Assembly: GCA_009789175.1 (NCBI GenBank)
Contig: CP046866.1
Location: forward strand, 2,046,001-2,110,000
DNA: 64,000 nt
Source of the DNA: Salinibaculum litoreum
GTDB taxonomy: Archaea; Halobacteriota; Halobacteria; Halobacteriales; Haloarculaceae
Direction of reading: 5' to 3'
The position numbers and the translations under genes are program-made. The notes below the pieces were generated by a model. The model was not told the origin of the DNA. It searched no databases and was given only the letters and a program-made list of their open reading frames with translations. Positions 2,315 through 63,456 of the stretch are shown here, one piece after another (within the stretch, counting starts at the first letter, position 1; each line of letters opens with the position of its first letter).

Positions 2315-4102
2315 GTGACCAGCGAATCCAACAGCGTCGACGACAAGGCAGTCCTCCAGAACCTTCGGGACAGTGTGTTCGTCGTCGACACCGAGTACAT
2401 CGTTGTCTACGCGAATGCACGGCTCACAGAGACGCTCGCGACCACACGTGACGAGCTACTGGGGCGCACGCTGGAGGACATGGAAGAGTTCGTTGCTGAA
2501 GGGTTCGACACCCTCCTGACCGAAGTCGAGGCAGTGATACAGAACGGGGCGGTCGACAGGCGCGTCGAACTGGAGACGGTCCACCCGGACTCGGCACCGG
2601 CACCGTCACGGCCAGCCGTCGAGGCCCGTATCTCGCCGTTCGAGAGCGACGACGAGCAAGACGGTGCGCTCATCGCCCTGCGTGACATCTCGACGCGCAA
2701 GGAGCGAGAGACGCAACTGCGCGAGCGCAAACAGCGTTTGAGCGCGATGTTCGAAGGCCACAGCGCCCCGATGTTGCTCATCGACCCGGAGTCGGGCACC
2801 ATCGAGGACGCGAACGAGGCCGCGGTCGATTTCTACGGGTACGACGAGGACGCGCTGCAGGCAATGAAAATAAACGACATCAACAACCTCTCCCCGGCAG
2901 CAGTCGCCCGCGAACGCAGACAGGCAAAGCGGGAGGACCGGAACCACTTCATCTTCGAGCACGAACTCGCGTCGGGCGAGATTCGGACCGTCGAGGTACA
3001 CTCCTCGCCGGTGCAGGTCGGCCAGCGGGAACTGCTGTTCTCGATTGTCCACGACATCAGCCAGCGCAAGGAGTACGAACACGAACTGCAGTTGTTCCGC
3101 GAGGCGGTCGAACAGGCCGGGCACGCAGTCATCATCACCGACGCCGAGGGGACCATCGAGTACGTCAACCCCACCTTCGAGGCCCAGACAGGCTATGACA
3201 GTGAGGAAGCAATCGGGCAGACGACCCAGCTGCTGCGGTCGGGCAAGCAGGACGACTCCTTCTACGCAGACCTCTGGGAGACGATTCTTGCTGGTGATAT
3301 CTGGGAATCGACGCTCATCAACCAGCGGAAATCGGGCGAACTCTACTACGCCGAGCAGACCATCGCACCGATTACCAACGACGGGACGATTACGAACTTC
3401 GTCGGAATCCAGTCGGATATCACGAACCGGAGGCTCAGCGAGAAGTGGCTCTCGGAACTCAACCGCATCATGCGACACAACGTCCGCAACGCGCTGACGG
3501 CCATCATCGGCCACGCGGAGGTACTCGCCGAAGAAGTCGACGAGGAACGGGAGTCCCACGTCGAACGGATTCTCGACCAGGCAGACAGTCTCGCTGCGAC
3601 AAGCGAGAAGAGTTCGCTCATTCGCCAGCACATAGACAGCGAGAACAACACCACCGCGACAACCGACCTCGCGGCAGTCGTCGAGGAGGTCGTGGCCGAC
3701 TTCGAGGAGGACTATCCCGACGCGACGATACGGACAGATGTCGAACCCGCGATGGGCGAAATCGGGTCGGCGACGTTTCGGACGGTCGTGACCGAACTCG
3801 TCGACAACGCGGTCCGACACAGCGACCGCGAGTCCCCGACCGTGACGGTTTCCATCGAAACTCCCGACGAATCATCGGCACACGTACGACTGCGCGTCGC
3901 TGACGACGGGCCGGGCATCCCCGAACAGGAACTGTCGGCCGTCGAACTCGGGGTGGACGAACAACTCACACACAGCAGCGGCATCGGGCTCTCGCACGTC
4001 CACTGGGTCGTTACCGACTGCGGTGGGGAAGTGATGATTTCGGACAACGAACCCCGTGGTACCGTGGTGACGCTGTCGTTGCCCCGGGGAGACAGCGCCT
4101 GA
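2315..4102 (+). CDS. Multi-PAS sensor histidine kinase
   Basis: A soluble haloarchaeal sensor kinase of about 595 residues with three PAS domains ('LRDSVFVVDTEYIVVYAN', 'APMLLIDPESGTIEDANEAA', 'AVIITDAEGTIEYVNPTFEA') followed by a PAC segment. The phosphoacceptor box is 'LNRIMRHNVRNALTAIIGHA', and the HATPase domain has N-box 'VVTELVDNAVRHS' and G-boxes 'ADDGPGIP' and 'SSGIGLSHVHWV'. No membrane segment is present, so it senses a cytosolic signal such as redox or a ligand. I chose the GTG at 2315, which has a GGGAG ribosome-binding site, over the GTG at 2291. No response regulator is adjacent, so its partner is encoded elsewhere. Confidence 0.9.
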   Translation: MTSESNSVDDKAVLQNLRDSVFVVDTEYIVVYANARLTETLATTRDELLGRTLEDMEEFVAEGFDTLLTEVEAVIQNGAVDRRVELETVHPDSAPAPSRPAVEARISPFESDDEQDGALIALRDISTRKERETQLRERKQRLSAMFEGHSAPMLLIDPESGTIEDANEAAVDFYGYDEDALQAMKINDINNLSPAAVARERRQAKREDRNHFIFEHELASGEIRTVEVHSSPVQVGQRELLFSIVHDISQRKEYEHELQLFREAVEQAGHAVIITDAEGTIEYVNPTFEAQTGYDSEEAIGQTTQLLRSGKQDDSFYADLWETILAGDIWESTLINQRKSGELYYAEQTIAPITNDGTITNFVGIQSDITNRRLSEKWLSELNRIMRHNVRNALTAIIGHAEVLAEEVDEERESHVERILDQADSLAATSEKSSLIRQHIDSENNTTATTDLAAVVEEVVADFEEDYPDATIRTDVEPAMGEIGSATFRTVVTELVDNAVRHSDRESPTVTVSIETPDESSAHVRLRVADDGPGIPEQELSAVELGVDEQLTHSSGIGLSHVHWVVTDCGGEVMISDNEPRGTVVTLSLPRGDSA

Positions 4103-4210
4103 TAGTGATTACTGCGGTTATTTGCATAGCGAGTCTCGAACGGTGCCGTTTCAACGACTCCCAGCGCGATTGTGGGTGCACTGGCGGTAAAGACTCGCAG
4201 TAATCACTAT
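4102..4210. repeat. Inverted-repeat element (possible MITE), 15-bp perfect termini
   Basis: ATAGTGATTACTGCG (4102-4116) recurs as its exact reverse complement CGCAGTAATCACTAT (4196-4210), bounding a 109-bp unit with no coding potential. The left terminus overlaps the kinase stop codon by one base. I see no clear target-site duplication. It could be a non-autonomous insertion element or a large terminator hairpin; the perfect termini and short internal spacer favour a MITE. Confidence 0.5.
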
Positions 4211-4406
4211 GAGGCGGTGCTGCTACCACCGAGCCCCAACCGTCTACCACAACAACAGGGAGTCGCCACCGGTTCGGGCGAGTGCAGGCAACCCGTCCAT
4301 GCTCGTTCGGGTCAAGGCCAACGAGCCGACCGGAGCGGCCGTCGCCGTTCAGTTGCCACTGGCCGAGTAAGAGACTGCAAGACAGCATCACTGGCGGCCG
4401 GACGAG
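4211..4406. other. Intergenic stretch with possible gene remnant
   Basis: No full gene is visible. On the plus strand a short open frame ends at the TAA at 4368-4370 with a protein-like tail (MLVRVKANEPTGAAVAVQLP, from the ATG at 4299). It has no start context or length to be a gene, and may be the tail of a coding sequence disrupted near the 4102-4210 element. Confidence 0.25.
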
Positions 4407-5246
4407 CTAGCGGTCGCGGACGACGACGAACTCCGCAAGGTCTCTGAGATACACCATGGCTTGTGAGTCCGGGACGTCGACAGAATCGAGCGCGGCAAGA
4501 GCAGCGTCGGCCGTCTCCTGTGCCTGGTCGTTGGCCTCCTCGGGCGTGAGGTCGGTCACCTCGACGATGGAGGGGCGTTCCATTTCGGCGTCGTGGCCGG
4601 TCGGCTTGCCCAGCTGCTCGGGGTCGGCCGTCGCGTCGAGGACGTCGTCACGCATCTGGAAGGCAACGCCGACACGCTCGGCGTACTGGCCGAAGGCTTC
4701 GACAGTGTAGGCATCAGCGTCGGCGGCGATAGCGCCCAGTTCGGCTGCTGCACGAAACAGCGCGCCAGTCTTCTTTCGCGCCAGGGCAAGGTACTCCTCC
4801 TCGGAGACGGGCTGGTCGACGAGTTCGAGGGCTTCACCCTCGCCCAGTTCGACCATCGACTCCGTCACGGCCTGCATCGCCCGCTCGTCGCTGAAAAGGG
4901 CAAACGCCTCCCCGAGCAGCCCGTCAGAGGCGATGATTGCGGGACCGTGCCCGAAGGCCGTCCACGCTGCGGGGCTGTCACGGCGGCGCTCGGACTCGTC
5001 GATGATGTCGTCGATGACCAGCGAGGCGTTGTGGACGAGTTCGATGCCGACCGCGTAGTCGACGGCACGGTCGACATCCCCGTCCAGCGCTTCACAGACC
5101 AGCACCGTCACTGTGGGGCGAACGCGTTTGCCCCCGGCCAGTGCGACGTGTTCGAGTTGCTCGCGGAGTTCGTCGGGTTCGACCGCATCAAGCACCTCCG
5201 TCAGTCGGTTCTCGAACCGGTCCCGACGACGCTCCAGATACTCCAT
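4407..5246 (-). CDS. Polyprenyl (geranylgeranyl-type) diphosphate synthase
   Basis: A 279-residue trans-isoprenyl diphosphate synthase that elongates allylic diphosphates with IPP, supplying archaeal membrane lipids or carotenoid and quinone side chains. It has the first Asp-rich motif DDIID (79-83) followed by ESERRR, the GGKRVRP substrate loop (38-44) and the second Asp-rich motif DDVLD (200-204) followed by GKPTGHD. It is shorter than the ~350-residue main GGPP synthase of haloarchaea, so this may be the second IdsA-type paralogue. Product chain length cannot be fixed from the sequence. It is transcribed divergently from the multicopper oxidase. Confidence 0.88.
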   Translation of the reverse strand: MEYLERRRDRFENRLTEVLDAVEPDELREQLEHVALAGGKRVRPTVTVLVCEALDGDVDRAVDYAVGIELVHNASLVIDDIIDESERRRDSPAAWTAFGHGPAIIASDGLLGEAFALFSDERAMQAVTESMVELGEGEALELVDQPVSEEEYLALARKKTGALFRAAAELGAIAADADAYTVEAFGQYAERVGVAFQMRDDVLDATADPEQLGKPTGHDAEMERPSIVEVTDLTPEEANDQAQETADAALAALDSVDVPDSQAMVYLRDLAEFVVVRDR

Positions 5247-5428: not shown

Positions 5429-6580
5429 ATGAGCCAGAAACTCGGGGCGCCCGGCGACGGGCTCTCACGGCGCGAATTTGTTGCGGCGACCGGCGCGACT
5501 GGGATGGCGGCTGCGGCTGGGTGTGCAGGCGCACCGACCGCCGAAACCGACGGCGGTTCACAGCAGAAGGTCGGTGGTGGCCAGAACCAGGCGGACGTAC
5601 CCACGACCAGCCCCCCGGAAGTCGTCAACGTCGACGAGCAGGGCAACGAGGTGACGATCAGTTCCGTGGCCGCACGTCACGATGTCCACCCCGAGGAGAC
5701 GATGGGTGGGCCGGTCGAACTCCCGCGCGTGTGGGCGTTCAAAGCTGACGACGGCGAGCCAAGCGTCCCTGGCCCAATCCTCCGGACGACGGAGGGTGAG
5801 GACATGGAAATCACGCTTGATAACACGGGCCACAGCATGCCCCACACGCTGCACTTCCACGGCGTGACGAAGACGTGGGAAAACGACGGGGTCCCGACGA
5901 CGACGGGCATCACGGTCAAAGGTGGCGAGAAACACACCTACGAGATTCCCGCCAACGTCCCGGGGACCCACCTCTATCACTGTCACTACCAGACCCACCG
6001 CCACATGGAGATGGGGATGTACGGCATCCTTCGGGTCGACCCCAAGGGCTACGAGCCCGCCGACAAGGAGTACTTCTTCACACTGAAAGACTGGGATTCG
6101 GGGCTCTCCCGACAGTTCGCAGGCGAGGACGCCTCCTACAACCCACGCGACCGGAACACCGACATCTTCACGATGAACGGGAAATCAGCACCGCGGACAC
6201 TCCACCCCGAGAAGGGGTCACCGATTATCGTCTCCAAGGGTGATACGGTCCGGGCACACTTCGTCAACGCCGGCTACATGAGCCACCCGATGCACCTCCA
6301 CAACCACCGCTTTCGGACGGTCGAGAAAGACGGTGGACAGGTGCCCGAGGCGGCCCAGCACGACGAGGACGTCGTCAACGTCGCGCCCGGTCAGCGCCGC
6401 ACCATCGAGTTCGACGCCACCGTCGACCCCGGCATCTACCTCATGCACTGTCACAAGGTCAACCACGTGATGAACGGCCGGAGCTACCCCGGCGGAATGC
6501 TCGGCGGTATCGTCTACGAGGAAGCGATGGATACCGACATCTTCGCCAGTCTGATGGACTACGCCGGCTTCGAAGGGTAA
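5429..6580 (+). CDS. Two-domain multicopper oxidase, Tat lipoprotein
   Basis: A 383-residue secreted copper oxidase. I start at the ATG at 5429 because it gives a Tat signal (SRREFVAATG, residues 13-22) ending in a lipobox with Cys32 (AAAAGC). Cupredoxin domain 1 has copper motifs HTLHFHG (~139) and HLYHCHYQTHRHMEMGM (~181-197). Domain 2 has HPMHLHNHRF (~286) and YLMHCHKVNHVMN followed by GGML (~335-355). Type 1-like Cys-His...Met sets appear in both domains, which places it with two-domain laccases/nitrite-reductase-like enzymes that work as trimers. The substrate (phenols, metals or nitrite) is not determined. It faces the outside of the cell. Confidence 0.88.
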   Translation: MSQKLGAPGDGLSRREFVAATGATGMAAAAGCAGAPTAETDGGSQQKVGGGQNQADVPTTSPPEVVNVDEQGNEVTISSVAARHDVHPEETMGGPVELPRVWAFKADDGEPSVPGPILRTTEGEDMEITLDNTGHSMPHTLHFHGVTKTWENDGVPTTTGITVKGGEKHTYEIPANVPGTHLYHCHYQTHRHMEMGMYGILRVDPKGYEPADKEYFFTLKDWDSGLSRQFAGEDASYNPRDRNTDIFTMNGKSAPRTLHPEKGSPIIVSKGDTVRAHFVNAGYMSHPMHLHNHRFRTVEKDGGQVPEAAQHDEDVVNVAPGQRRTIEFDATVDPGIYLMHCHKVNHVMNGRSYPGGMLGGIVYEEAMDTDIFASLMDYAGFEG

Positions 6581-11081: not shown

Positions 11082-11660
11082 CTAGAGGAGCATTACGACG
11101 TTTCCCATGCCCCGGCGTTTGCGCTCGACGAGGTTTTTCGTCTCCAGGCTATCGAGCGTCCGACTCACGGTCGCTTTCGAGAGGTCGGTCCGCTCGACGA
11201 TGTCACTCTGTGGGAGCACGCCGTCGGCATCGAGGATGACTTCGTAGATGACCTGTTCGTTGTTGGCGAGCCTGTCGGCGGTCTCTTCCCACTCCTGCCG
11301 TCGAGCCTCCAGCAAGTCCTCGCTGGGTGCTGGCTCGGCCTCCGCGCCGTCTGCCCGAACCGGGTCGGAATGCGTGCCAGCCGGTTTCCGGGTCGTGGCC
11401 GGCGATTCGTCGGCCGCTGTCGCCCAGTCACCCGTGAGCAGGTACGTCCCGCTGGCCCCGAGCGATATCGCCGAGATGGTGATGATTGCCACGTCGCGAT
11501 ACTGGAAGTAGCCACCCAGTTCCGCGACTTCCGTCCCGTCTTCACCGACGGAGACGACGACCGGGGAGGGGTTGATGAGTTGGACAGCGAGGACGACCGT
11601 CGCGGCGACAAAGACGACCGCGGCGAGGAGTTGTGTACCCTGTGGCGGCCGCAAATCCAT
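11082..11660 (-). CDS. Membrane-anchored winged-helix transcriptional regulator
   Basis: I start at the ATG at 11660 (MDLRPPQGTQLL), giving 192 residues. Two N-terminal transmembrane helices (LLAAVVFVAATVVLAVQLI and DVAIITISAISLGASGTYLL) flank a short loop of 'PVVVSVGEDGTEVAEL'. A charged linker leads to a C-terminal MarR/DUF7343-like winged helix: 'VIYEVILDADGVLPQSDIVE' and 'LSKATVSRTLDSLETKNLVE' (recognition helix). The layout suggests a one-component sensor that reads the membrane or exterior and binds DNA. A phased repeat array at 11708-11767 in the divergent promoter is the obvious candidate target, including for self-control. Confidence 0.8.
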   Translation of the reverse strand: MDLRPPQGTQLLAAVVFVAATVVLAVQLINPSPVVVSVGEDGTEVAELGGYFQYRDVAIITISAISLGASGTYLLTGDWATAADESPATTRKPAGTHSDPVRADGAEAEPAPSEDLLEARRQEWEETADRLANNEQVIYEVILDADGVLPQSDIVERTDLSKATVSRTLDSLETKNLVERKRRGMGNVVMLL

Positions 11661-11707
11661 ACTGGGGTATTCTGGAAACGCCCACAAATGCGCATCGGTT
11701 CGGATTC

Positions 11708-11767
11708 CCGAAACCGCCGTGAAACACCTGTGAAACGCCTATGAAACGGATTTCAAACGCGTTTCAC
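11708..11767. promoter_or_regulatory. Phased 11-bp repeat array (candidate operator)
   Basis: GAAAC-type heptamers start at exact 11-bp steps: GAAAC (11710-11714), GTGAAAC (11719-11725), GTGAAAC (11730-11736), ATGAAAC (11741-11747) and TTCAAAC (11752-11758). An inverted GTTTCAC follows at 11761-11767. The array lies just upstream of a TATA-like GACTAATG near 11771-11778, on the secreted-protein side of the divergent promoter. One-turn spacing is typical of sites for a regulator that binds cooperatively on one DNA face. Confidence 0.65.
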
Positions 11768-11804
11768 CGAAGGACTAATGTGGGTTTTCTGGCAACAGTG
11801 ACGT

Positions 11805-12455
11805 ATGCCATCGACGGTCCGACGGCGGCTGTTCGTCATTGTGGTGTTGACAGCGGTCGGACTGAGCGTGGCCGGGGTGAGCGCCGCCTTCGACCTCGGG
11901 GACGCACTCGGGGACACCACCAGGACCGGCGAAATCAACATCTCGGACGACAACGTGACGTTTTCAGACGGTGACCGCGAGGTCCGTCTGCTGAAGAACC
12001 TCTCTACGACGAGCGACATCGAGGTGACCGAGAACGGCGGTGAAATTCGGGTGCGCGAGAGCGACGACGGACCGTTGAGTGAGCGTGAGCGCCAGCTTGC
12101 AGTCGATATTGCAAGGCAGAACGACAGCGTCCGGCAGTATCTCGACGAGGGGGCCACAGCCGAGGTCGAGCCGATCCGCCAGCTCGACGCAGACAGAGTC
12201 AAGACGACGAACCTCACAGTCGAGGCCGAGGTCGAAACGAACGTCTCGGTCCACTCGGCTGAGCAAGTCAGGGTGAGGAACGTCACCGTGCAATACGAGG
12301 ACGACACGGTGACCGTCGACCGGGGTCCGGAATACGTGGACGACGAGGCAGTCGTCGACATCAAAAACAGCGAGACCGGCGAGCGTCGCTACTCGGTCGT
12401 CGTGAATCTAGCCGACGAGCGTATCGAGCGGGTCACCGAGCACGAACCGCACTGA
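11805..12455 (+). CDS. Secreted or exported protein of unknown function
   Basis: A 216-residue protein with a signal peptide (RRRLFVIVVLTAVGLSVAGV, cleavage near VSAAF). The acidic mature part contains several N-x-S/T sites (NVS, NLT, NVT). It has a beta-rich rhythm such as 'NVTFSDGDREVRLLKNLS' and 'VRVRNVTVQYEDDTVTV'. The central 'LSERERQLAVDIARQNDSVR' helix resembles a PepSY-like helix, but I would not assign that family. It is divergent from the membrane HTH gene, with the phased GTGAAAC array in its promoter, so it is probably that regulator's target. Confidence 0.7.
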   Translation: MPSTVRRRLFVIVVLTAVGLSVAGVSAAFDLGDALGDTTRTGEINISDDNVTFSDGDREVRLLKNLSTTSDIEVTENGGEIRVRESDDGPLSERERQLAVDIARQNDSVRQYLDEGATAEVEPIRQLDADRVKTTNLTVEAEVETNVSVHSAEQVRVRNVTVQYEDDTVTVDRGPEYVDDEAVVDIKNSETGERRYSVVVNLADERIERVTEHEPH

Positions 12456-13345: not shown

Positions 13346-13588
13346 ATGGCAGAGATACTCGCGGAGAATCTCTCCGGCAAGGCCGTCATGGGCTCGGACG
13401 GGGCCGAGCTCGGCATGCTGTACAACATTACGATGAATCTCGATTCGGGGCGACTCGAAAACCTGGTCATCACGCCCAACGAGGACAGGGGTGTCCAGAC
13501 CGACTTCAGGACCGACAACGCGGGTCGGCTCCTCGTCCCCGTCGGACGCGTGCAGGCTGTCAAAGACCACATGATTATCGAACGCTGA
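13346..13588 (+). CDS. PRC-barrel domain protein (CdpB-like)
   Basis: An 80-residue single PRC-barrel protein (MAEILAENLSGKAVMGSDGA...LVPVGRVQAVKDHMII). I start at 13346 because the frame upstream overlaps the divergent halocyanin promoter and lacks family residues. Haloarchaeal stand-alone PRC-barrel proteins of this size (CdpB1/CdpB2) bind SepF and tune FtsZ-based division, so a division role is likely by homology. It lies 7 bases upstream of nob1 and is probably co-transcribed with it. Confidence 0.85.
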   Translation: MAEILAENLSGKAVMGSDGAELGMLYNITMNLDSGRLENLVITPNEDRGVQTDFRTDNAGRLLVPVGRVQAVKDHMIIER

Positions 13589-13595
13589 TTTTCGG

Positions 13596-14054
13596 ATGTA
13601 CGTTCTCGATTCTTCGGCGTTTATCAACGAATATCACACCGACGAGCGCATCGCGACGATTCCGCTCGTTCGGGAGGAACTGGAAGACGAGAGTGCCTAC
13701 CGCTTCGACGCGATGGAAGGGTCAGGGATGCATCTGCACATTCCCGACGCCGAGACCGTCGAACGCATCGAACGGGCAGCACGGGAGACCGGGGACTTCG
13801 AGGAACTCTCCCGGACCGACATCCGACTGGTCGCCGCCGCGTTCGAACTCGACGGTACCATCGTCACCGACGACTACGCGATGCAAAACGTCGCCGACAA
13901 ACTCGAAGTCTCGGTCGACGTCATCGCACAGGACGGCATCACCGAACAACGCGAGTGGACCTTCCAGTGTCAGGGCTGTGGCCGCGAGTTCGACGACAAT
14001 CACGACCGCTGTCCCATCTGTGGCAGCGAACTCTCGCGGAAAAACCCTGCCTGA
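13596..14054 (+). CDS. nob1: Endonuclease Nob1 (PIN domain, 18S/16S rRNA 3' end)
   Basis: A 152-residue PIN endonuclease with the N-terminal acidic site at Asp5 (MYVLDSSAFI), 'LSRTDIRLVAAAF' and 'TIVTDDYAMQNVA' completing the acidic cluster. A C-terminal zinc ribbon has Cys125, Cys128, Cys139 and Cys142 (CQGCG...CPICG). Nob1 cuts the 3' end of small-subunit rRNA during ribosome maturation. Length and architecture are those of archaeal Nob1. It follows the PRC-barrel gene by 7 bases. Confidence 0.93.
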   Translation: MYVLDSSAFINEYHTDERIATIPLVREELEDESAYRFDAMEGSGMHLHIPDAETVERIERAARETGDFEELSRTDIRLVAAAFELDGTIVTDDYAMQNVADKLEVSVDVIAQDGITEQREWTFQCQGCGREFDDNHDRCPICGSELSRKNPA

Positions 14055-14392: not shown

Positions 14393-15592
14393 TCACGCCA
14401 TCCCCGCACCGCCGGTGACGCGAGCGTACATCGCGAGAAAGGAGATGGCGTTGAACGCACCGTGGACGAGAATTGGGACAATCAGGTTCTCCGTGCGGGC
14501 GTAGATGTAGCCCAATCCAAGCGAGAGGATGAAAACGGTCGAGAGCGAGACAGCCATCCGAATCGGGTCCGGGTCGGCGTACTGGCCGCCGTGGGTGAGC
14601 GCGAAGAAAATGCTAGCAACTACTATCGCCTGGCGCTCGCTAATATAGTCGTAGAGGTACTTCTGGACGACACCGCGGTAGAGCAGTTCCTCGCTGGGGG
14701 CAATGGCGAGGAAGGAAAGTGGCACCAGCACCAGCAGGAACTCCGGTGTCCCTGAGTTCTTTGCCTCCTCCTCTACGGTACTTTCGATAGCAGGCAGGCC
14801 GAATTCCGAAATAAGTATCGAAACACCCTGTAATACCACCAACAATCCGATGAGACCGGCGGCCGCAACGACCAAATCGCGCCGAGTCGGTACGGCGAGG
14901 TCCAGCCATGCGCGATCTTTACCTAACAAGGAGAGTATGTAGGCAACAACAAGGACGATTGATACTGCCGTAGAGATAGTCAACACTGGATACTCTATAC
15001 TGATTGCTGACCTACCAATTATAGACATGACAGTGCCTGTCAAAACCGTACTAAGAATTGCGCTCACTAAGAAGCCGAGAATACCGCTGAGGGCCGCCAC
15101 GCCGATGCCGCGGGTGATGGCGAACACCCGCCCCGGCGGGACGGCCAGTGCCATCGCAACGCCCATGCCGATGACGGGAATCGCACAGGCCGTCGCCAGG
15201 GGCAACCCCAGGGGCTGGCTCCAGAGACTTACCTCGCCAAAGAGCGTCAGCAGGTCCACCACAGCAGCGACGAGGCCCGTGATAGCGGCGACTACACCGG
15301 CGGGGCGGTCGGGAAGCCCCACGCGGCGGTGGAGGACGAACACCGCGAGCGCGAGGACAGCAGCACCGCGGGCAACCGAGCCGAGTGGGAGGGCAGCGAC
15401 CGTCGTGTCGACGCCCTCGCCGGGGACGAACAGCGCGGCAAGCATGAGACCCGCAGCGACGGTTCCGAGCGTCGAGGCGACCGGCTGGAGGGGTGCCGGC
15501 GGCGCACTGGCGTCGTCCCCGGCGACCGACGCGGCCTCCCGGGAGCCGTCTGCCCGGGTCGTGGGACCATCGGCGGCTGAATCGTCTGCCAT
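14393..15592 (-). CDS. CPBP-family intramembrane metalloprotease
   Basis: A 399-residue polytopic protein from the ATG at 15592 (MADDSAADGPTT). The N-terminal half has about six transmembrane helices of unknown role. The C-terminal half is an ABI/CAAX-type (CPBP) protease with motif 1 'APSEELLYRGVVQKYLYDY' (EExxxR), motif 2 'FFALTHGGQYAD' (His) and motif 3 'ILVHGAFNAISF' (HxxxN). In haloarchaea these are thought to process membrane-anchored proteins; the substrate is not known. The internal TM region around 14800-15050 is notably AT-richer than the rest. Confidence 0.88.
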   Translation of the reverse strand: MADDSAADGPTTRADGSREAASVAGDDASAPPAPLQPVASTLGTVAAGLMLAALFVPGEGVDTTVAALPLGSVARGAAVLALAVFVLHRRVGLPDRPAGVVAAITGLVAAVVDLLTLFGEVSLWSQPLGLPLATACAIPVIGMGVAMALAVPPGRVFAITRGIGVAALSGILGFLVSAILSTVLTGTVMSIIGRSAISIEYPVLTISTAVSIVLVVAYILSLLGKDRAWLDLAVPTRRDLVVAAAGLIGLLVVLQGVSILISEFGLPAIESTVEEEAKNSGTPEFLLVLVPLSFLAIAPSEELLYRGVVQKYLYDYISERQAIVVASIFFALTHGGQYADPDPIRMAVSLSTVFILSLGLGYIYARTENLIVPILVHGAFNAISFLAMYARVTGGAGMA

Positions 15593-15804
15593 TGCGCGAG
15601 GTAGTGCCACCAGCACCAAAAGTGGCTCCGTTACGGACGAGCAGCGTTCGTATCCACAGCTGGTCTAGCCGGCAGTCCGTCTGTTAGCCCTCTGTCGAGT
15701 CTCGTGTAGCTGGATACACGATGCAGACAGTCAAAATCGAAGACCAGGACACACCGAGTGCCGGAGAGATACGACAGAATATGGCTGCGAATTCTTGAGA
15801 GGAA

Positions 15805-17100
15805 CTACTCGATGAGCAGTCGCTCTTTCTCTTCGACGGCATCGGCCTCCTCGAAGTCACCGCCGCCGAGTAACCCACGGGCGGCCCGCTTGCCCCACTC
15901 GACGGCTGGCTGATTGAACGTCTCTACCCCGTAGAGTTCGCCGACCAGCACACAGGCCGCTTCCATCGCGTAGAGCAGTTCGCCGATACCGCGGGCGTCC
16001 AGCGCGTCGAGTTCGATGCGGACGTTCGGGCGGCCGGCAGCGGCCAGGCTGGCCTCGGTCGCCTCGAACTCGGCGTCGAGCAGTTCGCCCAGCCCCGTGC
16101 CGCCGAGGTAGGCGAGGTCGGCAACGTCCGTCTCCGGAATCGTGCGGTCCTCGCGGTCGGTCTCACGGACCAGCGTCACCAGTTTGTCCCGCGGACCAGC
16201 GCGGTACAGTTGCAACTGGGAGTGCTGGTCGGTCGCCCCGAGCGCTCGTGCGGGAGTCTGTCCCAGCCCGTCCTTGCCGAGGCTCTCGGCCCACAGCTGT
16301 GCGAACCACTCCGCGAACGGCTCCAGGCGTTCCGCGTAGGGCATCATCGCATTGACCGACGCGCCGCGCTGGTCGAGTGCGTAGGCGATTGCCCCGTAGG
16401 CGTATGCCGGACAGTCAAACAGCGACGGGGACAGCGACTCCATCGCTGCCTGTCCACCATCGAGTACGGCCCCGATGTCGTGGCCCTGAATCGCCGCAGG
16501 AACTAGACCGACCGCAGAGAGTGCAGAGAACCGACCGGGGACGCCCTCGGGGACAGTCAGCGCGGGCAGGTCGTGTTCGTCAGCGAGCGCACGCAGCGGG
16601 CCATCCTCGCCGGTGGTGACGATAGTGCGCTCGGTCCAGTCGACGCCCGCCTCGGCCATCGCATCCCGGACGACGAGGAAGTTCGACAGGGTTTCCGCGG
16701 TGGTTCCCGAGCGCGAGACGACGTGGACCGCCGTCGAGTCGAGCGGCAGGTCCGCCAGCGTCTCCGAGACGGCCTCGGGGTCGACGTTGTCGAGCACGCG
16801 GTGGGTGGTGTCGCTGGGACCCAGCGCAGTCGAAATGGTGGCGGCACCGAGCGCGCTCCCGCCGATGCCGACCGTGAGAACGGCGTCACTGTCCGCGAGC
16901 GGCGCGACCGCGGACTCGATAGCGTCGGCCTCGGTGCGTTCGGGGAGGGTGAGCGCGGCATAGCCGAACTCCCCCTCGGCCATCCCGCGGTCGATACGGT
17001 CGTGGGCTGTGGCGACGCGGTCATCGAGTGTGTCGAGCGCGGTCTCGCCAACGCCGGGGTCGGCGACGGCGGCCAGCGCGTTACCGATGTCTACCTGCAT
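15805..17100 (-). CDS. pgi: Glucose-6-phosphate isomerase
   Basis: A 431-residue SIS-fold isomerase, interconverting glucose-6-phosphate and fructose-6-phosphate. I start at the ATG at 17100 (MQVDIGNALAAVADPGV); the frame upstream is low-quality extension. Substrate-binding 'TVGIGGSALGAATI' and 'VVSRSGTTAETLSNFLVV' (SIS phosphate loop), 'ALDQRGASVNAMMPYAERL' and 'GATDQHSQLQLY' (catalytic Glu/His region) are all present. It fits the haloarchaeal two-SIS pgi length. It feeds GlmS (34.3 kb) with fructose-6-phosphate. Confidence 0.93.
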   Translation of the reverse strand: MQVDIGNALAAVADPGVGETALDTLDDRVATAHDRIDRGMAEGEFGYAALTLPERTEADAIESAVAPLADSDAVLTVGIGGSALGAATISTALGPSDTTHRVLDNVDPEAVSETLADLPLDSTAVHVVSRSGTTAETLSNFLVVRDAMAEAGVDWTERTIVTTGEDGPLRALADEHDLPALTVPEGVPGRFSALSAVGLVPAAIQGHDIGAVLDGGQAAMESLSPSLFDCPAYAYGAIAYALDQRGASVNAMMPYAERLEPFAEWFAQLWAESLGKDGLGQTPARALGATDQHSQLQLYRAGPRDKLVTLVRETDREDRTIPETDVADLAYLGGTGLGELLDAEFEATEASLAAAGRPNVRIELDALDARGIGELLYAMEAACVLVGELYGVETFNQPAVEWGKRAARGLLGGGDFEEADAVEEKERLLIE

Positions 17101-52947: not shown

Positions 52948-54117
52948 GTGATGGGTGGGCAACGAATGCTCTCACCCCACGGAAACGACCTGGTTGACCG
53001 CTGTCTCTCCTCGGACAGGAGCGACCAGGTCCGCGCGGACTTCGACGAGTTCGTCACGGTCACGCTGGACCGGACACTACTTTTCGACTTCGCTAACATC
53101 GCTCGCGGCGTCTACAGCCCGCTCAGGGGCTTCATGTCTCGCAACGACTTCCTCAAAGTCATCAACGACCTTTCGCTCGAAAACGGCGTCACCTGGCCAC
53201 TGCCGGTCGTGCTCGACGTCGATACCGACCTCGCGAATCAGATGGAACCAGGCGACCGCATCGGACTCCGCCGGTCCGACGGCGAACCAGTCGGTGTCAT
53301 GGACGTCGACAGCGTCTACCGCTACAACGAGACCGAAACCTGCGAGCAACTGTTTGGGACCACCGACGACGACCACCCCGGCGTCAGACTGCTCGCCGAC
53401 AAGGAGCCCTTCTTCGTCGGTGGCCCAATCAAGGCATTTTCCGACGCCATCCCCCGCAACGGTTCACACGACATCTCGCCACGGGAGGCACGGGTCCTCT
53501 TCAAGAAGAAGGGCTGGAACTCCATCGTCGGCTTCCAGACCCGCAACGTGCCCCATCGCGCTCACGAGTACCTCCAGAAGTCCGCGCTCGAACACGTCGA
53601 CGGGCTGTTCATCCAGCCGAAAATCGGCGAGAAGAAGCCGGGCGACTACACCAACGACGCCATCATCGAGGGCTACGAGACGCTCGTCGAGGGCTACTAC
53701 TCCACTGAGATGGTCACGCTCTCGATGTTCAAATCGCGGATGTGGTACGCGGGACCGCGTGAGGCTGTCTTCGACTCCATCGTCCGGAAGAACTTCGGTT
53801 GTACCCACTTCATTATCGGCCGCGACCACGCGGGCGTGGGCAACTACTACGGCGACTTCGAGGCCCAGGAACTGTTCGCCGCCGTCGGCGACATCGGCAT
53901 CGAACCGCTGTACTACCACTACGCCTTCTACTGTACGGTCTGTGACGGCATCGTCTCCGAGAAAATCTGCCCTCACGACAGCGAGCACCACATGGAGCCA
54001 AGCGGGACGAAACTTCGCGGGATGCTCGGTGACGGAGACAGTCCCCCGGCAGAACTGATGCGCCCGGAGGTCGCCGAAAGGGTATTGGAACTGGACGGGG
54101 TATTCGTGGAGGAATAA
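52948..54117 (+). CDS. sat: Sulfate adenylyltransferase (ATP sulfurylase)
   Basis: A 389-residue monofunctional Sat, forming APS from sulfate and ATP. Active-site motifs are 'GFQTRNVPHRAHEYLQKSAL' (QxRN plus HRAH, about residue 197) and 'FIIGRDHAGVGNYYGDFEAQ' (GRDH, about 291). A C-terminal zinc-like cluster 'CTVCDGIVSEKICPHDSEHH' is present. The ATG at 52948 is used here; MLSPHGND at 52966 is a good alternative. The stop shares one base with the APS kinase ATG. Confidence 0.93.
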   Translation: MMGGQRMLSPHGNDLVDRCLSSDRSDQVRADFDEFVTVTLDRTLLFDFANIARGVYSPLRGFMSRNDFLKVINDLSLENGVTWPLPVVLDVDTDLANQMEPGDRIGLRRSDGEPVGVMDVDSVYRYNETETCEQLFGTTDDDHPGVRLLADKEPFFVGGPIKAFSDAIPRNGSHDISPREARVLFKKKGWNSIVGFQTRNVPHRAHEYLQKSALEHVDGLFIQPKIGEKKPGDYTNDAIIEGYETLVEGYYSTEMVTLSMFKSRMWYAGPREAVFDSIVRKNFGCTHFIIGRDHAGVGNYYGDFEAQELFAAVGDIGIEPLYYHYAFYCTVCDGIVSEKICPHDSEHHMEPSGTKLRGMLGDGDSPPAELMRPEVAERVLELDGVFVEE

Positions 54118-54737
54118 TGTTCACGCTCTGGTTCATGGGCCGACCGGCCTCCGGGAAGTCGACGCTGGCCAGCCGCGTCGAAGACCAGCTCGTCGACCTC
54201 GAGTATCCAGTCGAGAATCTCGACGGTGACGACATCCGCAAACACCTCCACCCCGACCTGGGCTTTTCGCGGGAGGACCGCCGCACCAACAACCGCCGCA
54301 CTGCCTACATCGCCAAACTGCTCAATCGCAACGACATCCCCGTCATCGTCGGGATGATTACGCCGTTCCGTGACTCCCAAGAGCAGGCCCGAGACATCAT
54401 CGAAGAGGAAGGCGAATTCGTCCTCGTCTACGTCAAGTGTTCCGTCGACACCGCCGCAAAACGGGACCCGAAGGGCCTCTACGAGCAGGCCCGCGACGGC
54501 AACATCGAGAAGTTCACCGGCGTCAACCACCCCTTCCAGGAGCCGCTGAACCCCGACATCGTCGTCGACAGCGAGGACTTCTCCGTCGAGGAGAGCGTCG
54601 GCCACGTGATGACCCGCCTCGACGAGATGGGCGTCTTACAGGAACACTTAGATGAGGGGTATAGCTTCTCGCTCAGCCGTGACGAGGAACAGGAGATTAC
54701 CGACCGACTGCAGGAGCTGGGTTATCTGGACGAGTGA
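54117..54737 (+). CDS. cysC: Adenylylsulfate (APS) kinase
   Basis: A 206-residue APS kinase converting APS to PAPS. Walker A is GRPASGKST (residues 8-16), the APS pocket 'LDGDDIRKHLHPDLGFSRED' is conserved, and 'VKCSVDTAAKRDPKGLYEQA' is the family lid. It follows sat immediately (TAATG overlap), so PAPS is made from sulfate in two steps. PAPS then serves sulfotransferases or assimilation. Confidence 0.92.
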   Translation: MFTLWFMGRPASGKSTLASRVEDQLVDLEYPVENLDGDDIRKHLHPDLGFSREDRRTNNRRTAYIAKLLNRNDIPVIVGMITPFRDSQEQARDIIEEEGEFVLVYVKCSVDTAAKRDPKGLYEQARDGNIEKFTGVNHPFQEPLNPDIVVDSEDFSVEESVGHVMTRLDEMGVLQEHLDEGYSFSLSRDEEQEITDRLQELGYLDE

Positions 54738-57785: not shown

Positions 57786-58315
57786 GCCTGAAGTCCTCTT
57801 CCGCTTCGTTAAACAAGCCGCATCACTCGCTCAAAAGCGCTGTACTGCCACCCCACGGCGGTGGTAAGCGACCTGGCTGGCAACGGTTTTGACATCTGGA
57901 AGCATCTGACGTTACATCTCCTGCGGATTCACATGGGTGCCACCTGCCGCGAAATCGTCGGCTGGGCCAGCGAGATAGATCGAATGCGCACCGTTTTGCA
58001 GTTGGCCCGCACCGCGTTCCCAGCACCCTCAACGCTGTGGCAGTCGTTTGAGCGGGCACCGACCCGTATCTGGCGCCAACTGTTTGACCGGTCGGCGGCC
58101 AGGTGCGACCCCAGCGACTCTGGCGCAGTGGATGCCACGTTTTTCGACCGCCAGGCGGCATCCAGCCACTACATAGGCCAGCGGATCGCCACATACGGAC
58201 GCTGAAAACGACGGTTCTGGTCGATACAAACTCGTGTGTTGTCCTTGACCTGCCTTATTCGGCACACTGGGCCGACGACACACAGGTAGGGCCATCGGTG
58301 GCGCTGCACTTTTGA
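57786..58315 (+). pseudogene. IS5-family transposase remnant, frameshifted and truncated
   Basis: The pieces run VLFRFVKQAASLAQKRCTAT (57790s), then in other frames 'VSDLAGNGFDIWKHLTLHLL' and 'VDATFFDRQAASSHYIGQRI' (DDE region start: DATFFDR). After another frame change it reads 'LKTTVLVDTNSCVVLDLPYS' and 'ADDTQVG'. This is the N-terminal half of a haloarchaeal IS5-type transposase; the C-terminal catalytic Glu part is missing. It marks the boundary with the low-GC region. Confidence 0.75.
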
Positions 58316-60172: not shown

Positions 60173-60985
60173 AACTTGCTGAATCCGCTGACAACGTATT
60201 AGCGTTGTGCTCTATTACATTCTGCCCTCGTAAAACGGCGAACAATATGAGATACGGATCAACGACTCGGTATTTTCTGTATATTAACCTCGAGACACTA
60301 TAGTTGAGGAATTATTATATTTATACCATGATAACTCAGCGCAGTTCACCTGGCCCACTCAGTTCTGAATCGTAGCATCTGTGCCGTCAGGAATTACTAT
60401 CAGGGGTTTCGTATTCACATTAGATATATCTGTGTCGTCGTCGGAGAACTCACAGCGAAGCGCTACATTCGAGGTGGTGGATTTGTATCGACCTCACAGA
60501 ATTGCCGACCATTTTGGCGTTCATCCGGTATCCCTGAGCAAACGCTTCATTCCAGTGCGATGGTTTCAGCCAGCAGGTGCTGAGCGTATTATCACCCCGG
60601 ATTAGCGAGTTGTTTCTGACTGTCGATAGTGTGAGCCATGCTGTGAGGTGAGCGGGTTGACACTGAGCGCTTAGAACTCGTGCTTTATACTATCCGTAGA
60701 AGTCTCGGTCACCGTTCGATAGCAGGCCGTCCGAGTTCTGGGGAATGACCCTAGCCAGGCGCCGACACTCCCCAGCGAGGGCTGACAGCGACAGCCGTCT
60801 ATAGGAATCGATTTTTGAGGTTAGCCGCTTCACCCGAGTTTTCACAAAGTAACCCGCTCTTCATTGAGACACTGAGTTGTTGTAGGATGCTTAACCATCC
60901 AGTCCAGTCAAGCGTGTCGGGTGGGTCAAAACCGTCAAAATCCCCAACCCACAGATTAATTTTCCATCGATTCCCATCCCTAAGC
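60173..60985. other. 813-bp region between divergent glycan genes
   Basis: No intact gene. The first ~160 bases are AT-rich and must carry the promoter for the fusion gene. The rest holds short frames of poor composition on both strands. A possible transposase tail lies at 60799-60935. The last 60 bases lead into the aldolase start. Confidence 0.4.
60799..60935 (-). pseudogene. Possible transposase C-terminal remnant
   Basis: On the minus strand, 'DTLDWTGWLSILQQLSVSMK' then 'SGLLCENSGEAANLKNRFL' ends at a stop. The helix-like, Ser/Gly tail reminds me of insertion-sequence transposase ends, but I cannot name the family. Confidence 0.25.
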
Positions 60986-61981
60986 ATGTCGGTTCAGTTG
61001 CTTGATTGTACGCTACGAGAGGGAGCACATCTCAATGACGGGGAGTTCGGGAGAAAGACAGTCATCAACATCATAAACAGCCTATCAAAAGCTGGCGTCG
61101 ATTTTATCGAACTTGGTTTTCTTCGGGAAGTCGAAGATAACCGAGACTCGACAATATACAATTCGATTGAAAAAGTGAATACATTGCTTTCTGAGTGTGA
61201 TACATCGGAGGCGGCAGAATACGTCGTGATGGTCCGTCCGGGCCGTTTCGATATAAGCAATCTCACCGAACCAGAAGGTCAGTGTTCTACTGTACGAGTG
61301 GCCTTCTACAAACACCGGTTAGAGGCAGCCATCGAGTATGGGAAACAAGCACGAAAACTAGGATACGACGTATTCCTGAACCCAATAGCCATCTCAAGTT
61401 ACGACGACAGCGAAATTCGGAGTCTAATCAAGCGGGCCAACGACTTCGATCCGAGAGGGGTAAACATGGTTGATACGTTCGGCGCACTCGACCATGACAG
61501 ATCAGCAGAACTGTACGAACAGTATACTGCGCTGGACGACGACATCAAGATTGGACTCCACTATCATCAGAATCTAACACTACAGGTTGGGAATTGTATT
61601 AACATCATCACGGATACAGACTCAGAGAAGCGTATCACCGTCGATGGTTCGTTGTATGGAATGGGTAGATCACCCGGAAATCTACAAATAGAGGTGATTT
61701 CTGAATACCTGAACAGTAACTACGGTGCAGAATATGAAATTGATGCACTCTTTGATGTGATAGAAGATGTAATAAAGCCCATGAAACATGAGTACGACTG
61801 GGGTTATTCACCTGCTTATTTCATATCTGCGATCCACAACGTCCACCGAACGTATGGTGAGAAGCTCAAGGACAAGAGTATACCGTTGGCAGAAATTGAC
61901 GACTTTTGTCGTTCAATCAGTGGTACTGAGGCCGCAATGAGTTACGAGGAGGGCATTGTAGACGATTACTTCGATGTCTGA
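60986..61981 (+). CDS. DRE-TIM-type aldolase (HOA-like)
   Basis: A 331-residue TIM-barrel protein starting at the ATG at 60986 (MSVQLLDCTLREGAHLNDGE). The DRE-type start 'LLDCTLREGAHLND' resembles DxTLRDG (Asp-x-Thr-Leu-Arg-Glu). Metal His residues fit 'IGLHYHQNLTLQVGNCINI', and 'VDGSLYGMGRSPGNLQIEVI' (GMGR/GN) is typical of 4-hydroxy-2-oxovalerate aldolase-like proteins. In surface-glycan loci this group makes unusual carbon chains. Its stop overlaps the HAD gene. Confidence 0.8.
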   Translation: MSVQLLDCTLREGAHLNDGEFGRKTVINIINSLSKAGVDFIELGFLREVEDNRDSTIYNSIEKVNTLLSECDTSEAAEYVVMVRPGRFDISNLTEPEGQCSTVRVAFYKHRLEAAIEYGKQARKLGYDVFLNPIAISSYDDSEIRSLIKRANDFDPRGVNMVDTFGALDHDRSAELYEQYTALDDDIKIGLHYHQNLTLQVGNCINIITDTDSEKRITVDGSLYGMGRSPGNLQIEVISEYLNSNYGAEYEIDALFDVIEDVIKPMKHEYDWGYSPAYFISAIHNVHRTYGEKLKDKSIPLAEIDDFCRSISGTEAAMSYEEGIVDDYFDV

Positions 61982-62621
61982 ATTTACTGAAATCATATTT
62001 GACTTCGACGGCGTGTTAGCAGACTCAAATGAGCCAAAACTCGATTGTTTCAGACGGGTTGCAGCATCCTATGATCCTTCCGAAGCGGACGAGTTTCTAT
62101 CATATTGTAAATCTTCACCAGATAAGTCACGGTTCGAACTGATGCAGGCATTGGAGGACAAGTTGATAAAAAAAGGAATCTCGGTCACTTACGAAGAGTT
62201 GCTGAACGAGTACTCTGATTGTGTTCAAAAAGTCTATCACAGAGTGGACCGGGTGAAAAATCTAGATGAGTTGAAAAAAATGGACCCCGAACTAACTTGG
62301 AGCATAGTGTCGGCAGCACCACAATCGACGCTGCGGGAGTTATTACGAGACCAGGGAGAACTGGAACTGTTCGGGGGCGGTGTGTACGGGTCGCCACGGA
62401 GTAAAGAGCAAATATTCACCGAGGAGTACGATCCCGAACATTTAGTGAACAATGCACTCTTCATCGGAGATAGCGCATCTGATAAGAATGTCGCAGAGAA
62501 ATTTGATCTCGAATTCATCTACGTCGAGAAGTGGTCACGAGAGCGGGATAAGTGGTTAGCAGATGAAGCGGACGTTCCCACCTACAGAAACGTCAAGGCC
62601 GTGTTCGCTGATCGCGTATGA
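61974..62621 (+). CDS. HAD-family phosphatase
   Basis: A 215-residue haloacid-dehalogenase-fold hydrolase. Motif I is DFDGVLADS (nucleophile Asp), motif II 'WSIVSAAPQSTLREL', motif III Lys in 'GSPRSKEQIF', and motif IV 'ALFIGDSASDKNVA'. It has a C1 cap. It overlaps the aldolase gene by 8 bases (61974-61981) and probably dephosphorylates the aldolase product. Composition is AT-rich like its neighbours. Confidence 0.85.
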   Translation: MSEFTEIIFDFDGVLADSNEPKLDCFRRVAASYDPSEADEFLSYCKSSPDKSRFELMQALEDKLIKKGISVTYEELLNEYSDCVQKVYHRVDRVKNLDELKKMDPELTWSIVSAAPQSTLRELLRDQGELELFGGGVYGSPRSKEQIFTEEYDPEHLVNNALFIGDSASDKNVAEKFDLEFIYVEKWSRERDKWLADEADVPTYRNVKAVFADRV

Positions 62622-62724
62622 ATATACAGAATTCTCATATATATCTTCCTTTTCGCTAATTTTTTCTATACAGGACAGGAAGGGAACGGTACATTGAAAC
62701 AACTGCATATACTTTCTGACGGTA

Positions 62725-63456
62725 ATGATACCGGCTTTGGTGATTGGAAGGGAAGGGAGTAGAAGCTTTCCGAGTAAGAACGTTACAGAAGTGCTAGGCC
62801 GACCACTCTGTTGGTACCCGATGAAAGCGGCAAAAGAAAGCGATTCCGTCGATACCACGTATGTTTCGACAGACTTTGATGAAATTATGGCAATCGCGGA
62901 GGATTTGAATCTAAATACGATCGAACGGGATCCCGAGTTAGCAACCGACAAGGCTTCCGGCTGGGATGCGTTCAAAGATGGCTATGAAACGATTTCCGAG
63001 CGCGAATCCGAAGACGTAGAGGCTATCGTCTTGTTGCTCTGCAATTGTCCAACACTAACGGCCGACATGATAGATGAGGGGATAAGGATGTTACGGCAGG
63101 ACGAAGACCTTGATTCGGTTGTCCCGGTAAGTAAATACAATATGCGGAGTCCTGTTAGGGCGAGAAAAATCGAAGAGGAACGACTTGAGCTATTTATGTC
63201 GGTCGAGGAGATAGAAGGTGCATCTTCCCATCGAGATACACAGGCTAATACGTACTTTGCGGATGGTACGTTCATCATTCGCCCACACTGTTTCAACATG
63301 GACAATGGAGATCCACATCTGCCAGTCATCGGAACAAACGTGAAACCTCTAAAAAACGAGGCTGGTCTAGATGTTGATTTCGAATGGCAGCTCCCGCAGG
63401 CAAAGTACTGGTTACAGGAACACGGCTTTACCTCAGACGATACACCATATAATTAA
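62725..63456 (+). CDS. CMP-sugar synthetase-like nucleotidyltransferase
   Basis: A 243-residue protein of the acylneuraminate cytidylyltransferase (NeuA/KdsB) type. The CTP-loop is 'ALVIGREGSRSFPSKNVTEV' (R-x-G-S-R-x-x-x-K-N), followed by 'GRPLCWYPMKAA' and 'STDFDEIMAIAEDLN'. A later 'DADW...'-like acidic loop ('VDFEWQLPQAKYWL') fits the family. It would join CMP to an acidic sugar. A TATATATC-rich stretch at 62637-62645 lies upstream. Confidence 0.82.
   Translation: MIPALVIGREGSRSFPSKNVTEVLGRPLCWYPMKAAKESDSVDTTYVSTDFDEIMAIAEDLNLNTIERDPELATDKASGWDAFKDGYETISERESEDVEAIVLLLCNCPTLTADMIDEGIRMLRQDEDLDSVVPVSKYNMRSPVRARKIEEERLELFMSVEEIEGASSHRDTQANTYFADGTFIIRPHCFNMDNGDPHLPVIGTNVKPLKNEAGLDVDFEWQLPQAKYWLQEHGFTSDDTPYN

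Follow-up and report, generated by a model that had tools for sequence, protein, structure and literature searches.

Three adjacent genes of the haloarchaeon Salinibaculum litoreum probably encode the front end of a PEP-independent pathway for a CMP-activated 3-deoxy-2-ulosonic acid (Kdo-, Kdn- or sialic acid-like), which a Maf/MptE-like enzyme would transfer to a surface glycan. The genes occupy positions 60986-63456 of the 64,000-nucleotide stretch of contig CP046866.1 that was analyzed (positions 2,046,001-2,110,000; the window), where three intact plus-strand open reading frames in a row encode an HMGL-like (DRE-TIM) aldolase, a HAD phosphatase and a cytidylyltransferase (Table 1); the open reading frames and their Pfam matches confirm the order in which a preliminary description of this DNA had listed these enzymes. 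In the proposed pathway the metal-dependent DRE-TIM aldolase would join pyruvate, as its enolate, to an aldose that probably carries a phosphate; from the resulting 3-deoxy-2-ulosonic acid phosphate the HAD protein would strip the phosphate group and so pull the reversible aldol step forward; the cytidylyltransferase would join the 2-ulosonic acid to CMP; and a Maf/MptE/GT42-fold transferase encoded by the adjacent gene would pass the sugar to a glycan or protein of the cell surface that the remaining genes of the island (below) would build. We infer each of these reactions, their order, the pyruvate donor, the CMP product and the transfer from features that were computed, namely the gene identities, the intact catalytic motifs, recurrent linkage, gene fusions and the absence of NeuB and DAHP/Kdo8P-type synthases. 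Because the linkage recurs across phyla, fusions occur and NeuB and KdsA are absent from the genome, the genes may be read as one functional unit in which the aldolase would replace NeuB/KdsA. The same evidence favors the condense, dephosphorylate and activate logic with a different aldolase that had been put forward for these genes; its reference to nonulosonic acid synthesis, which implies nine carbons, goes further than this evidence, and 3-deoxy-2-ulosonic acid, with the carbon length left unspecified, is the safe wording.

Table 1. Features in and next to the gene set, with positions in the window.
Feature	Position	Strand	Evidence
Aldolase, DRE-TIM/HMGL-like, 331 aa	60986..61981	+	Open reading frame list, Pfam, NCBIfam, structure alignment
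HAD_2-type phosphatase, 215 aa	61974..62621	+	Pfam; motifs read from sequence
NeuA/PseF/KdsB-type cytidylyltransferase, 243 aa	62725..63456	+	Pfam, NCBIfam
Maf/MptE-like glycosyltransferase candidate, 307 aa	63507..64000 in window, gene to 64430 (L002:6508-7431)	-	Motifs, homologue fold
Degenerate nucleotidyltransferase domain plus APH/choline-kinase-like kinase, 576 aa	58442..60172	-	Pfam, NCBIfam
Truncated transposase remnant	57861..58205	+	Left edge of low-GC island; 37% identical over 107 aa to transposase at L002:11598-12425

All three proteins exceed the Pfam gathering scores of their families: the aldolase scores 65.3 versus 29 bits with HMGL-like PF00682 and has the HxH and R-D/E positions (R11-E12, H192 and H194), the HAD protein scores 43.5 versus 23.8 bits with HAD_2 PF13419, and the cytidylyltransferase 41.2 versus 22.6 bits with CTP_transf_3 PF02348. 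The aldolase reading frame opens at 60815 and its homologues start at the ATG at 60986; the first 8 bp of the HAD gene lie within the end of the aldolase gene. The sequence of the HAD protein shows the complete set of four HAD motifs (DFDGV, S, K and GDSxxD), and the cytidylyltransferase retains the N-terminal REGSxxxPxKN nucleotide loop and the C-terminal DxD. The best NCBIfam match of the aldolase is 4-hydroxy-2-oxovalerate (HOA) aldolase at 89 bits versus a cut-off of 229, and it also falls below the equivalog cut-off of TIGR03217, of the same name (87.6 versus 286 bits). The best matches of the cytidylyltransferase are PseF, NeuA and KdsB, and the highest of its NCBIfam scores is 68.4 bits versus the equivalog cut-off of 205.7 for PseF TIGR03584, a low score that counts against the proposed pathway. 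Because these scores are far under the cut-offs, the two proteins are, judged by sequence, distant relatives of HOA aldolase and PseF and not those enzymes themselves.

The ulosonic-acid pathways to which we compared this gene set (Neu5Ac, Pse, Leg, Kdo and Kdn) all start with a PEP-dependent NeuB/KdsA-type synthase. The host genome (G000) has no match to the NeuB family PF03102, which is present in 20 of the 97 genomes of a class sample, and none to PF00793, which covers DAHP/Kdo8P-type synthases including KdsA, so nothing else recognizable in this genome appears to supply a 2-ulosonic acid; its only CTP_transf_3 gene is the one in the window. As in the Kdo pathway (KdsA, KdsC, KdsB), the predicted steps are condensation, HAD dephosphorylation and CTP activation. 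Unlike KdsA, which uses PEP and is absent here, the condensing enzyme would be a metal-dependent barrel of the pyruvate-aldolase DRE-TIM type, and the window HAD protein is of the HAD_2 and not the KdsC type. NeuB/NeuA-type pathways such as the legionaminic acid pathway of Halorubrum sp. PV6 (PMC6137143) resemble the present case in having a NeuA/PseF-type CMP-transferase in a haloarchaeal surface-glycan cluster, and a homologous CMP-transferase adjoins NeuB in at least two other haloarchaea (G196, locus L029; G083, loci L031 and L112); they differ in that the host genome is without NeuB/LegI, and the aldolase appears to occupy the place where NeuB would be.

A contig scan for relatives of the aldolase gave 80 loci, mostly from Lachnospiraceae and Oscillospiraceae and also from Melainabacteria, Bacteroidota, Spirochaetota, Akkermansia and Campylobacter, and the bacterial proteins are 31-41% identical to the window aldolase; two archaeal relatives from the same phylum carry a C-terminal extension. 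Linkage was counted over the 72 loci with a readable neighbourhood by comparing flanking genes with genes five or more away in the same loci. A CMP-transferase lies directly beside the aldolase in half of these loci, at 0.25 per flanking gene versus 0.009 for the distant genes (Fisher p 3e-20, which overstates independence as the 72 loci are mutually related, so that the contrast between near and distant genes of a locus is what counts), and a KdsC- or HAD-type phosphatase lies beside it in nearly half (0.098 per flanking gene for the KdsC type and 0.133 for the HAD_2 type, versus 0 in both cases at five or more genes). Across the same 72 loci neither epimerases (0.035 versus 0.028) nor GT2 genes (0.028 versus 0.009) are in significant excess beside the aldolase. 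The spacing is also tight, with 34 CMP-transferase genes ending -73 to +46 bp from the aldolase start. The CMP-transferase, aldolase and HAD genes are consecutive in Campylobacter coli (L087), KdsB-like transferases and KdsC-like phosphatases adjoin several bacterial relatives, and polysialyltransferase-family (PF07388) and DUF115 genes lie near several. Phosphoribosyltransferase-domain proteins that differ in their N-terminal part are also found near the aldolase in C. coli (L087:1557-2672) and in Treponema (L032:1772-3187).

The aldolase itself is fused to partners in some relatives. In L072 a HAD domain (Hydrolase_3, E 9e-37) is joined to the aldolase (E 1.6e-18) next to a CMP-transferase. 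(This locus is from a Bacillales MAG; the fusion gene spans 585-2372, and one gene on there is a cytidylyltransferase-NUDIX fusion at 3336-4559.) A C-terminal domain of roughly 190 aa is attached to the aldolase in about 70 relatives; its best Pfam match is CST-I, below the cut-off. An AlphaFold2 model of this domain from 47 sequences (pLDDT 91.5, pTM 0.90) aligns with MptE/HPPK (Z 13.3, rmsd 3.0, 159 aligned), Maf (Z 12.4) and the sialyltransferases 2wml (Z 12.1), CstII 1ro8 (Z 11.6) and CstI 2p2v (Z 11.0), after which scores drop to Z 4.3. The model thus points to a sialyltransferase/Maf/MptE fold, and sharing a fold does not establish activity. Assignment of the domain to the DUF115 family was rejected, as the profile match is only weak, and the shared fold alone is claimed.

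We also surveyed NeuB and KdsA in 30 bacterial genomes, many of them drafts, that have the aldolase and CMP-transferase together. Full-length NeuB (at least 230 bits) was found in 7 and KdsA above its cut-off in 9, with one genome having both; 15 have neither, although these absences rest partly on draft assemblies, and the 15 include the isolates Niameybacter massiliensis, a Paenibacillus and Mediterraneibacter glycyrrhizinilyticus. In 14 of the 30 genomes NeuB matched weakly; these matches were not accepted as NeuB, as they coincide with sub-cut-off KdsA matches and look DAHP-synthase-like. Chances seem evenly balanced that these loci represent a widespread, undescribed PEP-independent route to CMP-activated 3-deoxy-2-ulosonic acids. 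The place of NeuB/KdsA would there be taken by a DRE-TIM pyruvate aldolase, which is in many cases joined to a sialyltransferase-fold domain and in one case to a HAD phosphatase; the route would extend over Firmicutes, Melainabacteria, Bacteroidota, Spirochaetota, Campylobacter and one haloarchaeon, and its product may be an unknown acidic sugar. We found no description of such an aldolase-HAD-CMP-transferase pathway in the open-access literature. If the aldolase can replace the synthase, surveys that count NeuB or KdsA miss producers of acidic surface sugars, among which would be many Lachnospiraceae and Oscillospiraceae of the gut. The haloarchaeon, with neither NeuB nor KdsA, offers a clean case for testing this. 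A search of viral contigs with the single aldolase protein gave no match, and phage and plasmid searches returned only distant HOA aldolases and a few capsule-type relatives. A Streptomyces plasmid (L024:6656-9750) has a related aldolase gene with HAD and dihydrodipicolinate-synthase-like genes as neighbours, which may form a natural-product cluster.

Could the aldolase and the cytidylyltransferase be neighbours for another reason? The aldolase product might be a hydroxy-oxo acid or a branched-chain sugar that the CMP-transferase does not use; the latter enzyme would activate some other sugar, the two genes being adjacent since both feed one polysaccharide. The family is indeed not tied to CMP-sugars, because about one fifth of the relatives are in RfbH/TPP-enzyme clusters without a CMP-transferase, where epimerases also occur; in addition CTP_transf_3 is diverse and has members that act on other sugars, and HAD enzymes are widespread and of broad specificity. 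In the phylogenetic tree, however, the window aldolase groups in a 37-row clade with support of 100/98, and 27 of these rows are near a CMP-transferase; within the clade it belongs to a five-row subset (98/98) together with L032, L034, L072 and L087, on a long branch that leaves its exact sister uncertain. The RfbH/TPP-linked aldolases are mostly in a separate group, and therefore the family has more than one use. CMP-transferase adjacency to the aldolase is moreover far tighter than that of other glycan genes, the host genome has no other recognizable 2-ulosonic acid source, and the domain fused to aldolases is predicted to have a CMP-sialyltransferase-like fold, all of which make separate substrates for the two enzymes unlikely. 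The second context (L076, L082, L089, L092, L098-L100 and L102), with RfbH and/or a TPP-dependent enzyme and often a HAD and an epimerase, is probably another branched or dideoxy sugar pathway.

The active site bears on the reaction that the aldolase might catalyze. Among solved structures the protein is closest to a putative aldolase (3dxi) and to HOA aldolases, and R11, E12, H15, H192 and H194 align with conserved catalytic or metal-site positions of the HOA aldolase 4lrs. R11, R104, D163, H192 and H194 are invariant across 85 relatives, while position 12, Glu in the window protein, is Asp in all 85, which counts against the proposed chemistry. Homocitrate synthases use Glu at the corresponding position, so metal binding by the window aldolase despite E12 is plausible. 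The same substitution could be taken to mean that the protein works as a phosphonomethylmalate-type enzyme or as a Claisen-type synthase (isopropylmalate/homocitrate-like) and that the CMP-transferase acts on a phosphonate or some other acid; phosphonate pathways do contain HMGL-like synthases and CMP-transferases, and isopropylmalate synthase and homocitrate synthase models do match the aldolase. They match it more weakly, however, at 48 bits versus nearly twice that for HOA aldolase, the host genome has no PEP mutase above the cut-off, and the PseF/NeuA/KdsB character of the cytidylyltransferase also argues against a phosphonate route, so that we regard this alternative as quite improbable. 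With HOA aldolases (DmpG, BphI, HsaF) the protein shares the fold family and aligned catalytic and metal positions. That the protein is a catabolic HOA aldolase brought together by chance with unrelated HAD and NTP-transferase genes in a transposon-rich island, as its best NCBIfam model and the surrounding transposases might suggest, is very improbable given its score far under the family cut-off, the lack of an acetaldehyde dehydrogenase partner among the neighbouring genes scanned, its glycan-gene surroundings and the recurrence of the gene set in unrelated bacteria.

The 307-aa product of the gene that follows on the opposite strand is the candidate transferase. It has the motifs GNGPSL and IYNATLGG (GNGPSL and IYNATxGG are common to its bacterial homologues), and its match to PF01973 (MptE/DUF115) is sub-threshold at 27.7 versus 34.6 bits, which counts against the assignment. 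A structure model of its L051 homologue (pLDDT 75, from 6 sequences) aligns with the Maf glycosyltransferase 5mu5 (Z 15.9, rmsd 3.5, 196 aligned), with C. jejuni sialyltransferases (Z about 11-12) and with MptE/HPPK (Z 11.7), and unrelated folds drop to Z 4.4. The Maf/MptE/GT42 fold is thus predicted both for a homologue of this gene and for the domain fused to bacterial aldolases, although the fused domain is shorter. A Maf enzyme has been reported to accept CMP-Neu5Ac and CMP-Kdo (PMC11339370).

On the other side of the aldolase, the 576-aa protein has an intact kinase domain (HxDxxxxN and D motifs), and in L034 its homologue directly follows the CMP-transferase and aldolase genes, so an accessory role is possible. 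An obligate role in the pathway was rejected, because 6 other haloarchaea have homologues and no aldolase lies nearby in the four of these whose surroundings were read. These nucleotidyltransferase-kinase fusions form a family in haloarchaeal genomes (the window gene and L123-L126), of which L124:8809-10623 keeps the canonical nucleotidyltransferase motif and the others look degenerate.

The region had been described as a low-GC island, and the measured values agree: the GC content of 60986-63456 is 0.459, below the minimum of 0.517 among same-size windows in the 1-52 kb region (mean 0.617, SD 0.034), most of the window is about 63% GC, and GC3 of the genes is about 0.49-0.51 versus 0.82 for the nearby ATP sulfurylase gene. 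Reading past 64 kb, as had been proposed, shows about 30 kb more of the low-GC glycan island. This part encodes GT4 and GT61 glycosyltransferases, sulfatases, NAD-dependent epimerases and several transposases, and the GC climbs again at a UDP-glucose dehydrogenase gene; ABC transporter and ATP sulfurylase/APS kinase genes lie upstream of the aldolase set. Searches of 292 genomes of the class Halobacteria and of the 145 other family genomes, one of which belongs to the same genus, yielded no close relative of the aldolase. The low GC had been taken as a mark of recent transfer: a foreign origin is likely because of the GC content, the transposases and the absence from the 145 family genomes, but "recent" does not follow, as the nearest relatives are only about 36-41% identical and no close donor was found.

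From their translations, transposase-like genes or remnants are numerous in the island (in addition to the remnant in Table 1, L002:7620-8504, 11598-12425 and 13414-13926; L003:908-2119, 2751-3920, 5671-6540 and 15088-16341), and a TnpB-like protein is among them. The ATP sulfurylase and APS kinase genes near the island lie back to back at 52948-54737, which suggests PAPS supply for sulfated surface glycans, and two sulfatase-like genes lie farther along at L002:17595-18965 and L003:10698-12035.
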